In this document: one piece after another, positions 5,638 to 58,288 of the stretch
Layout of the letters: each line of letters begins with the position of its first letter
How positions within the stretch are numbered: position 1 is the stretch's first letter
From: Candidatus Thiodiazotropha endolucinida
Lineage (GTDB): Bacteria; Pseudomonadota; Gammaproteobacteria; Chromatiales; Chromatiaceae
Assembly: GCF_001715975.1 (NCBI RefSeq)
Contig: NZ_MARB01000004.1
Location: forward strand, 1-64,000
Direction: 5' to 3'
DNA: 64,000 nt
Program-made: the position numbers and the translations under genes
Notes under the pieces: model-generated
The model's input: the letters and a program-made list of their open reading frames with translations, nothing else
Database searches by the model: none
Told to the model about the DNA's origin: nothing

Positions 5638-6477
5638 TTGCATCAAGATATTAAAATTGGCGTATTTGTCGACGCAGAAAATGTCAGATACAACGGCGGA
5701 TACCAGCTGCGCTACGACATCCTGAGGATGTTCGCAGCGCGATACGGCGGATCCCTTCTCAGGCTCAATACTTACATAGCTTTCGACCAGGAACGCGCCA
5801 AGGAGGATCCCGAGTATCGTCGTCGCGCCATGACTTATCAGCAAATGGTCAGAGAGTACGGCTGGAAGGTCATCGTGAAGAATGTCCGCCGCTATACGGA
5901 TGAAGAGGGTAACGTCACCACCAAAGCCAATGCGGATCTGGATATGGCCGTTGATGCCATGTTGCAATCGGAAAAACTCGACCTGCTGCTTCTTGTCACA
6001 GGTGACGGCGATTTTCTACAGGTCGTGACCGCCCTGCAGGATCGCGGCTGTCGGGTGGAATTGCTTGGCTTCCGCAATGTTTCGCAGGAATTGCGCAGAC
6101 TTGTAGACGATTACTATTCGGGTTTTCTGATCCCAGATTTGCTGCCTATCTCGTATGAATCGCGTAATGATTGGGGAGAACCGGGTTCCTGTGTCCGCGG
6201 GGTCTGTGCGAAGTGGTTTCCGGAAAAGGGTTATGGCTTTTTACGTTTTCTCAAACGTATCGATCCTAATATGTGGATTATCGATCCCCGCCAGGAGGGC
6301 TCTCCTTACGAGAGTGTCTTTTGCCACGCCAATGAACTGGCCGACGAAGTCACAGATGAAGTAATGTCAAATCGGGACTCCATACTCGAATTCTATATCC
6401 AAAAGAGTGATAAGGATGACGGCTACGTGGCCAATAATGTACGCCTGGTACCAAGCTATGGCGGCACGGGACTCTAG
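5638..6477 (+). CDS. NYN (PIN-like) domain protein with C-terminal cold-shock-like domain
   Basis: Residues 5-170 form a NYN/LabA-type PIN-like nuclease domain. VFVDAEN with Asp12 comes first, then KANADLD (96-102), then LLVTGDGDF (118-126); these acidic residues are the expected metal-binding set of the family. Residues about 185-205 (VRGVCAKWFPEKGYGFLRF) resemble the first strands of a cold-shock or S1-like RNA-binding domain (compare KWFNxxKGYGFI). This suggests a single-strand RNA or DNA binding module fused to a nuclease fold. There is no ATG before residue 30, and an in-frame TAG lies at 5620, so the start is most likely the TTG at 5638 with an AGG 9 bases upstream. The stop codon lies inside the dispersed CTAGGGCCTGTTAAC repeat. 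Target unknown; proteins of this class act on RNA. Confidence 0.8.
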   Translation: MHQDIKIGVFVDAENVRYNGGYQLRYDILRMFAARYGGSLLRLNTYIAFDQERAKEDPEYRRRAMTYQQMVREYGWKVIVKNVRRYTDEEGNVTTKANADLDMAVDAMLQSEKLDLLLLVTGDGDFLQVVTALQDRGCRVELLGFRNVSQELRRLVDDYYSGFLIPDLLPISYESRNDWGEPGSCVRGVCAKWFPEKGYGFLRFLKRIDPNMWIIDPRQEGSPYESVFCHANELADEVTDEVMSNRDSILEFYIQKSDKDDGYVANNVRLVPSYGGTGL

Positions 6478-6503
6478 GGCCTGTTAACACTCTTCCGGCT
6501 ACA
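6474..6503 (+). repeat. Dispersed CTAGGGCCTGTTAACAC repeat, copy 1 (left half)
   Basis: CTCTAGGGCCTGTTAACACTC begins inside the last codons of the NYN gene, and the TAG stop is part of the repeat. The right arm is degenerate here. Confidence 0.6.
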
Positions 6504-6564
6504 ATTTTCCAACACCTTTAGTTATGTACAGGGATGTACCAGGCAACTGCCGTGCGTTTAACCT

Positions 6565-7140
6565 TCAACTCGGATCGAGGATAATACGGTAGCTTCTGGC
6601 TGAACCCGCAGCGCGAATTATAGTGCCGCTGCGTAAAGGATATTTCCCGGTTTCGCGATCGGCATAATATAGCCTTAACGACTCTTTAATCACCGGAAAT
6701 GCCAGCTTTTCCCAAGGTATCTCCTGTTCATCGAATAACTTGACCTCCAGGCTCTCCTCCCCTGCCGCAAAATCGAGATCGAGCAACCGGCTGCGAAACA
6801 ACAAATACACCTGATTTATATGTGGAAGATTGAATAGTGTATAGAGCCCCTCCACTTCCACCCGCGCACATGCCTCTTCCAAGGTTTCCCGGGCGGCGCC
6901 TTGTTGACTCGTCTCACCATTTTCCATGAATCCCGCCGGAACGGTCCACAAACCATAGCGGGGCTCTATGGCGCGGCGACATAAGAGGATTTGTTGTTCC
7001 CAAACGGGGATGCATCCTACGACGATCTTGGGGTTTTGATAATGTACGGTACTACAGATAATACATACATGTCTTGGCCTGTTATCACCTTCGGGAACCC
7101 TGACTTCGACCTCTGCGCCGCAGTGGCTGCAATACTTCAT
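6565..7140 (-). CDS. Nudix hydrolase with N-terminal zinc ribbon
   Basis: The protein has 191 residues. It starts with a zinc-ribbon (CSHCG near residue 4, CIIC near residue 26), followed by a Nudix domain. The Nudix box at about residues 70-92 is GFMENGETSQQGAARETLEEA, which fits Gx5Ex7REUxEE. Such zinc-ribbon Nudix proteins hydrolyse nucleoside diphosphate derivatives such as NADH or ADP-ribose; the exact substrate cannot be read here. The longer frame starting at 7167 runs through the dispersed repeat at 7151-7182 and adds a non-conserved leader, so I use the ATG at 7140. It is convergent with the NYN gene. Confidence 0.88.
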   Translation of the reverse strand: MKYCSHCGAEVEVRVPEGDNRPRHVCIICSTVHYQNPKIVVGCIPVWEQQILLCRRAIEPRYGLWTVPAGFMENGETSQQGAARETLEEACARVEVEGLYTLFNLPHINQVYLLFRSRLLDLDFAAGEESLEVKLFDEQEIPWEKLAFPVIKESLRLYYADRETGKYPLRSGTIIRAAGSARSYRIILDPS

Positions 7141-7150
7141 ACTTAAGATC

Positions 7151-7182
7151 CTAGGGCCTGTAAACAATCATCCAATCGCCTC
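7151..7182 (+). repeat. Dispersed repeat, copy 2
   Basis: CTAGGGCCTGTAAACAATC followed by ATCCAATCGCC, immediately upstream of the Nudix gene start. It has the left arm and the ATCCAAT core; the right arm is shortened. Confidence 0.6.
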
Positions 7183-7303
7183 TGCCGGGACTTTTTTGTC
7201 CGGCAAGGCAGCATAAGCGATGGGTAGTCATTCTGCATATGCGAACGATAGCGCCACTCGGCGTTGTTCGTCGTTCAGTTGGTATCACCAAACCTCTCTC
7301 CTC

Positions 7304-56221: not shown

Positions 56222-56224
56222 AAA

Positions 56225-57028
56225 CTATTTCAGGCTCAACACATCCTGCATATCGAACAGTCCCTTCTCCTTGTCTACCACCCATCCGGCAGCCCGGATA
56301 GCGCCGCGGGCGAAATTCATCCGACTTGATGCCTTATGCACCACTTCGACCCGTTCCCCTTCCATGGCGAACCAGACGCTGTGTTCACCGACCACGTCCC
56401 CTGCACGGATGGTCTCGAAGCCGATAGTCTTGCCATCCCGAGGACCGGTCTTTCCCTCCCGACCATAGACGGCACACTCACTTAAATCCCGACCAAGGGT
56501 ATCCGCAATCACTTCACCCAGTCTCAGTGCCGTACCGGAAGGTGCATCAACCTTGTGCCGGTGGTGGGCCTCGATAATCTCCACATCCGCTTCATCGCCC
56601 AAAACCCTGGCCGCCATTTCGACCAGCTTGAAGCTGAGGTTGACTCCAACACTCATATTGGGTGCGAACACGATCGCAATACCATCGGCCCCATCCCGCA
56701 ATGCCTGCTTTTCTGCCTCATTCAGGCCAGTGGTGCCGATCACCATACGCTTGCCCGCTTCGCGACAGATCGCCAGATGGGCCATGGTAGCGGTGGGAGT
56801 GGTAAAGTCGATCAGTACGTCGAAATCATCAATGACCGCTTCCAGATCCGTTTCCAGGGAGACATTAAGATGACCGATACCCGCCAGTTCACCGGCATCC
56901 TGGCCGATCAGCTGGCTCCCCTTGCGCTCCGTCGCAGCTCCCAGAACCAGTCCCTCAGTTTCGCTCACCGCTGTTACCAGGGATCTGCCCATGCGTCCCG
57001 CCGCGCCAACCACTGCGATTCTTGTCAT
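56225..57028 (-). CDS. dapB: 4-hydroxy-tetrahydrodipicolinate reductase
   Basis: Lysine/diaminopimelate pathway. 267 residues from the ATG at 57028 ([18 protein letters not shown]); AGGGG lies 8 bases upstream; the longer frame adds an unrelated leader inside the dnaJ-dapB gap. Motifs: [33 protein letters not shown], and the DapB signature [23 protein letters not shown]. Confidence 0.96.
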
Positions 57029-57053
57029 CCGATGCGCCCCTTCTAGATTTGCT

Positions 57054-58193
57054 TTAAAAGCCCATATTTTCAAAGAACTTTTTCACTCCATCAACCCAGC
57101 TGGTGGAATGAGGGCTATGCTTCGCACCACCCTTTTTCATGGATTCGTCGAGTCGCTTGATCAGATCCTCCTGTTCGGCAGTCAGTTTGATCGGTGTCTC
57201 GACCAGCACCCGGCACATCAGATCACCCATGGGGCCACCGCGTACCGGCTTGACACCCTTGCCGCGCATCCGAAACAGGCGGCCGGTTTGCGTCCCCGCG
57301 GGAATCTTAAGGATCACCTTACCATCCAGTGTGGGCACCTCCAGCTCACCACCCAGGGCGGCCACAGCGAAGCTAATCGGTACTTCACAGTAGAGATGAT
57401 TATCCTCGCGGCTGAAGATTTCGTGAGGCTTTACGGCGACCTGTACATAGAGATCTCCGGGTGGACCGCCATGCTCCCCAGCCTCACCTTCACCGGCCAG
57501 GCGAATACGGTCACCGGAATCGACACCAGGCGGCACCTTGACCGACAGTGTCTTGTGCTCCTGTACGCGCCCCTGTCCATGGCAGTTAGGGCAGGGATCC
57601 TCGATCATGGTCCCCTTGCCATGACAGCGTGGGCAGGTCTGTTGAACAGAGAAGAATCCCTGCTGCATGCGTACCTGACCATGGCCGCCGCAAGTATCGC
57701 AGGTCTTTGGGGTAGTCCCTTTCCGGGCACCGCTGCCGGCGCACACATCACACTTCACCAGAGTCGGCACCCTAATCTTGACCGTTGTTCCAGCGACTGC
57801 GTCTTCCAGTGAAAGTTGCAGGTTGTAGCGTAGATCGGCGCCACGATGCGCGCGGGAGCCGCCACCGCCGCCACGTCCCCCGCCAAAGATATCGCCGAAT
57901 ACATCACCGAAGATATCTGAGAAATTGGCACTGCCGCCACCAAAGCCACCACCCATACTGGGATCGACACCGGCGTGTCCGAACTGGTCGTAGGTCGCCC
58001 GCTTTTGCGCATCGGTCAATACTTCGTAGGCTTCCTTGGCCTCTTTGAATTTCTCTTCTGCTTCGACAGCGGCATCCCCGGTGTTCCTGTCCGGATGATA
58101 TTTCATGGCAAGGCGTCTATAGGCCTTTTTGATATCGGCCTCACTGGCATTCTTGTTGACGCCTAAAACTTCGTAATAATCACGTTTAGCCAT
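57054..58193 (-). CDS. dnaJ: Chaperone DnaJ
   Basis: 379 residues. The J domain has [10 protein letters not shown] with the HPD triad; a Gly-rich linker ([21 protein letters not shown]) follows. Four zinc-binding repeats come next: [25 protein letters not shown] and CPNCHGQG. The C-terminal substrate domain ends with [10 protein letters not shown]. Co-chaperone of DnaK in the same operon. A repeat copy and a hairpin lie in the dnaK-dnaJ gap. Confidence 0.97.
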
Positions 58194-58252
58194 GGTTTTT
58201 TATCTTTTACTACTGTTATTTGTTGAGATACATCATTCGTCCAGCTGTCTGA

Positions 58253-58288
58253 ATAGAGCCTGTCAACACTCATTCAACAGGCGCTAGT
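58253..58288 (+). repeat. Dispersed repeat, copy 10 (palindromic form)
   Basis: TAGAGCCTGT and ACAGGCGCTA flank CAACACTCATTCA, in the dnaK-dnaJ gap. Pairing is kept except for one A/G mismatch. Confidence 0.7.

Follow-up and report, generated by a model that had tools for sequence, protein, structure and literature searches.

Bacterial miniature inverted-repeat transposable elements (MITEs) measure about 100-200 bp and mostly have TA termini, as an excerpt of PMC2229807 describes them; the same excerpt likens the pneumococcal RUP element to the ends of IS630-Spn1, its proposed mobiliser. Truncated copies of another such element, QMITE2, are said in part of PMC10969869 to resemble repetitive extragenic palindromes (REPs), and the MITEs of Candidatus Thiomargarita nelsonii have other borders, either a 10-bp direct repeat or TATAG (excerpt of PMC4853749). 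Among insertion sequences (IS), elements of the IS5/IS427 group span 832-865 bp and nearly all have 2-bp target repeats (PMC3281130, Table 2). Here we describe a dispersed palindromic repeat in Candidatus Thiodiazotropha endolucinida, starting from the first 64,000 bases of contig C4 (NZ_MARB01000004.1), called the window below, in a draft assembly of 4,489,993 bases in 55 contigs (G000). Its scattered palindromes are best read as the ends and collapsed leftovers of a non-coding MITE rather than as a new structured RNA or regulatory signal, and we hold it quite probable that an IS5-family (IS427-like) transposase mobilises this MITE in trans and that the short forms are stubs which the MITE leaves behind. 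Four observations carry this reading: the MITE ends, a YTA target site with duplicated TA, IS5 elements with such ends, and a whole MITE facing an 18-bp palindrome in a related genome. Four strings of the repeat were not found in any paper searched, none of these papers joins Thiodiazotropha with miniature inverted-repeat elements, and nothing on bacterial MITE stubs appeared among the literature matches listed, judged by their titles and the starts of their abstracts.

A mostly intergenic family with transposon-like ends

The first-pass annotation had listed ten copies of an intergenic repeat, and each of these places carries a recognisable copy or part of one. Matches to GCCTGTTAACAC with at most 3 mismatches number 68 in the window, against 36.6 in shuffles, and none of 100 shuffles reaches 68. 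An excess of copies also appears across the genome: the 16-mer TAGGGCCTGTTAACAC occurs at 156 exact sites and the pattern GCCTGTTAACA-N1..5-ATCCAA at 119, while the reversed control gives 0. A 997-kb sample, on which the counts of 18-bp sites below also rest, holds 49 clusters, including 16 inverted pairs, of which two measure just 45 and 99 bp; the reversed control has no match there. Mechanically called open reading frames (ORFs) of at least 150 aa span 80.6% of this sample, yet just 3 of the 49 copies or pairs lie inside them and 46 outside, so the family is genuinely dispersed and mostly intergenic. It is multi-copy, short and non-coding, with terminal inverted repeats, as MITEs are.

Full-length elements have the ends GGGCCTGTTAACAC...GTGTTAACAGGCCC. 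Inverted-pair lengths, both TA included, peak at 231 (n=6), 269 (n=21) and 296 (n=18) bp in a tally of the loci examined, in which some elements count twice where both ends bring overlapping loci. Inverted pairs of 330 bp to 4 kb, the range in which a full-length IS with the Thiodiazotropha ends was sought, are absent among the loci scanned. As DNA, one 298-nt element folds at -101.8 kcal/mol (z -15.7) into an end-to-end stem plus two inner arms. A MITE end also lies within 67-185 bases of the start of contigs C6, C7, C8, C9, C14, C20, C26 and C29, and MITE interior sequence can be read at the starts of C6, C7, C9 and C26. With an end at no fewer than eight contig starts, the MITE probably explains many assembly breaks of the draft.

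Comparison with two close relatives (G004 and G020, 98% identical to G000 for two window proteins) shows how the element inserts. In nine filled/empty allele pairs, one species has TA-element-TA and the empty allele of the other keeps one TA, so the target is YTA (YTAR-like) with a 2-bp TA duplication. Filled G000 sites of this kind are C2:45670, C4:187096, C2:74388, C3:20064, C3:89074, C3:159290 and C4:223830, the last empty in G020; conversely, G004 insertions stand opposite empty G000 alleles at C1:17386 and C2:30614. At C3:89074, for example, G000 reads AAAC-TA-element-TA-GTAG and G004 reads AAAC-TA-GTAA. For contig C3, the comparison with G004 covers the sites reached rather than the whole contig. 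Four further sites (C1:255136, C3:2388, C3:103016 and C2:55625) have CA, TT or AA in the empty allele, consistent with later mutation of the TA. A 4-bp YTAR duplication was considered and rejected: C4:187096, with TTAG on the left, CTAA on the right and TTAA when empty, fits duplication of TA alone. Additionally, the MITE stands in opposite orientations at one TA site across species in three cases (C3:224171 against L317; C4:223830 against L316, with L314 empty; C1:147513 against G020 C1:20165), which reflects either an inversion of the DNA between the ends or more than one insertion into a hot site. Allele comparison at a locus on contig C5 (L029, 1289-1365) also shows a 7-base AAAACAG repeat with 11 copies in G000 and about one in G004 and G020.

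A probable transposase partner among IS5 elements

The ends of the MITE recur on autonomous elements. At locus L217 of genome G150, two perfect 16-base TAGGGCCTGTTAACAC ends with a spacing of 805 bp enclose a 251-aa ORF, whose protein matches NF033580 (IS5 family transposase) at 226.5 bits against a cut-off of 110, together with Pfam DUF4096 and DDE_Tnp_1. A 227-bp pair in the same genome (L195) has inner letters similar to the start of this IS, and therefore looks like a shortened version of it. The ends of related IS5 elements on Polaromonas, Cupriavidus and Caballeronia plasmids differ from the 16-mer at 0-3 positions and are spaced 816-828 bp, the Polaromonas element being the 828-bp one; for a Paraburkholderia relative, just one end was found in the stretch. 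The 16-base ends occur with 0-2 mismatches at L217, L194, L396 and L224, so that MITE and autonomous IS share them. Within the genus, IS5 copies include a decayed one in G012 and several of about 838 bp in G007, whose two ends differ from the 16-mer at 1 and 4 positions, respectively. Taken together, elements with such ends measure about 800-840 bp, and this size and the 2-bp repeat suggest the IS427 group as a putative label for the partner. The bases behind the shared ends (TAATCCAAT) are not common as a whole to MITE and IS, and no likeness of the Thiodiazotropha MITE to an IS beyond the ends was noticed, although no systematic comparison was made.

Other enzymes fit less well. An IS630/Tc1 partner was rejected: PF13358 occurs in 3 of 22 genus genomes, G000 not among them, and none of the four loci is bracketed by copies; they yield a single end-like match, with 5 mismatches and unpaired. 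Movement of REP/REPIN-type palindromes by a RAYT (HUH) transposase would agree with short, mostly intergenic palindromes that occur singly and in inverted pairs, and Y1_Tnp matches are present in 21 of 22 genus genomes. However, none of the 30 places scanned among the 75 matched is bracketed by copies, at one locus (L085) a full MITE lies about 150 bp outside the domain match, and G000 holds a single broken match. The TA duplication and the ends shared with IS5 elements also point to a DDE enzyme, making a RAYT origin scarcely credible. The impression of the first-pass annotation that the repeat is none of the well known REP/BIME or ERIC types agrees with the unbracketed Y1_Tnp loci.

A public-genome scan for GCCTGTTAACACTNATCCAA returned at least 100 stretches; among the matches listed, 87 come from Candidatus Thiodiazotropha or from bacteria living in the lucinids Ctena and Stewartia, and the remaining 13 from Sedimenticola, Thiohalobacter, Chromatiales and other gammaproteobacterial records. 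In a set of 56 genomes including G000, the 20-mer occurs in 22 of 22 from the genus, 1 of 13 others from the family and 0 of 21 others from the class. The 16-mer occurs in 23 of 369 Gammaproteobacteria genomes, G000 included, and loci from the other 22 reveal MITE-sized inverted pairs (about 227-305 bp) in 10 genomes, mostly with their own sub-terminal letters. Contigs filed as viral contain no copy of the 20-mer and the 16-mer in 11 stretches; pairs of 16-base ends occur on L387, L389, L391 and L393, three being MITE-sized and that of L387 IS-sized (about 818 bp). An 8-kb stretch of QBVD01, from a Ctena orbiculata symbiont, is 96.7% identical to G000.

Stubs, half copies and their possible origin

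Nearly precise excision of Tn10 deletes the DNA between short direct repeats in the inverted repeats of a hairpin-forming element and leaves a short palindromic remnant. We propose a comparable course here. After a MITE is moved in trans by an IS5/IS427-type transposase, replication slippage across its hairpin would delete the DNA between short direct repeats in its two ends. Deletion between TGTTAACA repeats would yield an 18-bp stub, and deletion between GGCCCT repeats a stub of 29-31 bp. Because the outer tips survive the deletion, each stub would be a TA-flanked hairpin, which may later erode to a half copy.

The smaller class is the 18-bp palindrome GGGCCTGTTAACAGGCCC between two TA, with three perfect sites and seven within 3 mismatches. 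Five of six altered controls give 0 at up to 3 mismatches, and the 3 matches of the sixth must be the perfect sites themselves, since just two letters of its core are altered. At the orthologous site C2:196637, G004 has a whole 296-bp MITE and G000 the 18-bp form TTAGGGCCTGTTAACAGGCCCTAA, exactly the residue expected if the DNA from one TGTTAACA copy to its counterpart in the opposite MITE end is lost. Other end remnants lie where a sister species keeps the MITE, at C1:43814, C1:147513, C1:152725 and C3:222870. The larger class, 29-31 bp, joins one end (GGGCCTGTTAACACTNATCCAATN) to the outer tip GGCCC of the opposite end, with TA on both sides; its letters probably reflect a deletion between two copies of GGCCCT, the first lying in the inner arm of one end and the second forming the outer tip of the opposite one. 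Ten G000 stubs are common to G004: C1:36583, C1:66047, C2:80034, C2:188383, C2:199008, C2:238612 and those in the window at 36623, 48148, 51930 and 58253.

The window copies fall into different kinds: the end of a complete MITE, 29-31 bp stubs, 18-bp-like remnants and half copies, all on the plus strand except one remnant. A complete but diverged MITE at 7151..7448, common to three species, has its left end at 7151-7185 and its right end at 7414-7448, the latter missed on first reading. The block GCGCCCCGAAGGAAGTGCCCTTGGGGT is amplified about threefold inside this MITE in G000 and lacking from the G004 and G020 copies. Four stubs are present. The 31-bp stub at 36623..36657, with TA at both ends, occupies the glgC-glgB gap in G000, G004 and G020 and is absent from G021 and G015, as is the stub at 58253..58287 in the dnaK-dnaJ gap, which is of the TAGRGCCTGT...ACAGGCGCTA type. 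The stub at 48148..48181 has arms CCAGGGC/GCCCTGG, identical in G004 and G020, and that at 51930..51963, adjoining the orotidine-phosphate decarboxylase gene, has GGGTCT/AGACCC in G000 and GGGTCT/AGGCCC in G020. Two remnants resemble the 18-bp palindromic stub, one at 40784..40806 between the glucose isomerase and starch synthase genes, where the sisters read GCCTGTCAACAGCCCC, and one at 9797..9818 on the minus strand, with 5 mismatches and common to G004 and G020.

Half copies complete the set. That at 6474..6498 keeps one end only, and its TAG terminates ORF 5638-6477; that at 42287..42315 supplies the stop of the starch/glycogen synthase ORF 40830-42290 in the same way, with other deletions in G004 and G020. 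Since the target is YTA and the element starts with G, insertion leaves a TAG stop codon intact. The third, at 48015..48031, corresponds to a complete stub CCAGGGCC...GGCCCTAG at the same place in G004 and G020, and because the sisters keep this stub at 48014, half copies can arise by further deletion.

Several findings weigh against MITE movement followed by collapse. The G000 draft contains 0 matches to the L217 protein, and its best NF033580 match scores 40.9 bits against the cut-off of 110, so the present mobiliser is unseen. Among the sites compared, no allele pair sets a MITE against a 31-bp stub. Instead, the 31-bp stubs C2:45670 and C4:187096 face clean single-TA empty sites in both sisters, and the 18-bp stubs C2:74388 (one TA in G004) and C2:55625 also face empty sites. 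Moreover, in genome G238, from another family, eight of the ten inspected copies (11 were counted) are a 29-bp unit GGGCCTGTTAACACTATGCGAACAGGCCC between TA, seven identical and one with one change; the remaining two are half copies, and the stretches inspected showed no full MITE. This pattern fits stub movement at least as well as collapse: either every parent MITE in G238 collapsed at one direct repeat, or the small unit itself moves.

These findings raise the possibility that the 29-31 bp palindromes are mobile themselves, either mobilised in trans by the transposase that serves the MITE or moving as single-stranded hairpins; they would then rank among the smallest transposons. The two G000 stubs opposite clean empty alleles, the repeated G238 unit at different sites with no MITE partner, and the retention of both outer tips and the TA pair all speak for such movement. 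Nevertheless, we consider it unlikely. The ten compared G000 stubs are common to G004 and hence not recent, and the related 18-bp stub stands opposite a whole MITE at one orthologous site. General DNA mechanics suggest that a pair of DDE ends separated by 29 bp of stiff duplex could hardly synapse, and recurrent deletion at one direct repeat would likewise yield identical stubs. The more specific proposal, that a hairpin of 29-31 bp with both tips and one TA pair has itself transposed, so that an IS5-type system can move a minimal unit of about 30 bp, which goes on spreading once the parent MITE has been lost, is similarly doubtful. A second repeat family in G238, ending in TAGCCCGCATTTCTCACCG, adjoins several of the 29-bp units (L377-L379, L381, L221). 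Three of the eight units lie directly at its end, and a fourth adjoins it in reverse orientation; the units seem to insert at its terminal CTAG.

Paired arms and comparison with known systems

The first-pass annotation took the co-changing arms of the repeat as a mark of selection for pairing. The arm pairs at 48148 and 51930 are real, although the right arm of the latter reads AGGCCC instead of AGACCC in a sister species. The third example, GCCTGT/ACAGGC at 58253, is not compensatory but the ordinary outer part of both ends; this copy has one unpaired position, G-G in the sisters and A-G in G000. A wider comparison used 36 hand-picked stubs, 35 from 96 rows (one shorter by a base) and the window copy 48148; rows without a right arm or identical to a kept one were left out, a choice that favours pairing. 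In this set, 86.8% of 287 cells pair, against 84.6% in shuffles, a level that 1 of 500 shuffles attains; 3 of 500 attain the covariation score of 0.180, and 33 of 500 the count of 13 further pair types. Both sides change in 9 of 287 cells (12 of 500 shuffles as high), and slid versions of the alignment all score lower.

These values, and the good folding of the 35-nt units (z -3.2 and -4.1), are of the sort that a structured RNA or a DNA regulatory element could show if its pairing were under selection. Yet the excess over shuffles and slid versions is favoured by the choice of stubs and by shared ancestry. Seven of the nine double changes fall in the two outermost pairs, which are the target flank and the duplicated TA, and only four pairs hold a double change, a number that 95 of 500 shuffles reach. 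Between G000 and G004, 13 shared copies (stubs and some half copies, a subset of all, three rows including a few flank bases) differ at 38 of 487 positions (7.8%); the flanks of 4 of the 13 are on average 95.8% identical, a rough figure since they include coding DNA. Roughly judged, shared copies thus diverge at least as fast as their flanks and give no sign of constraint. In an Rfam scan of the window, tRNA alone reaches the gathering score. Selection for pairing therefore finds no support in these data, and a conserved structured element is very improbable; the pairing of the arms follows from their being the two ends of a single transposon, each an inverted copy of its partner.

The family, in which filled, stub and empty alleles can be compared directly, offers a worked natural case of how hairpin deletion in a MITE can give rise to REP-like palindromes. 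It also cautions that paired arms in such repeats need not mean RNA structure. Moreover, the lower size limit of a transposon becomes testable, as the 29-bp units in G238 represent either MITEs that have collapsed or unusually small movers.

Among the closest known systems, IS5/IS427 elements have in common with the MITE ends like GGGC[CG]TGTT[AC]ACAC and TA at both borders; the MITE differs in having no transposase gene. RUP and Correia/NEMIS, compared by description, are likewise non-autonomous with TA termini, but their partner is IS630 rather than IS5, and DDE_3 was not found in G000. REP, BIME and REPIN sequences look alike as short intergenic palindromes that also form inverted pairs; the present repeat differs in being TA-flanked, in sharing its ends with a DDE-type IS and in showing no RAYT association. 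Chunjie, Nezha and QMITE2, again by description, are also small non-autonomous elements and differ by host. Unlike the truncated QMITE2 copies, the G000 stubs represent a specific deletion that keeps both outer tips. Compared with nearly precise excision of Tn10, the stubs described here occur in natural genomes, derive from a MITE, and come in two size classes and many copies.

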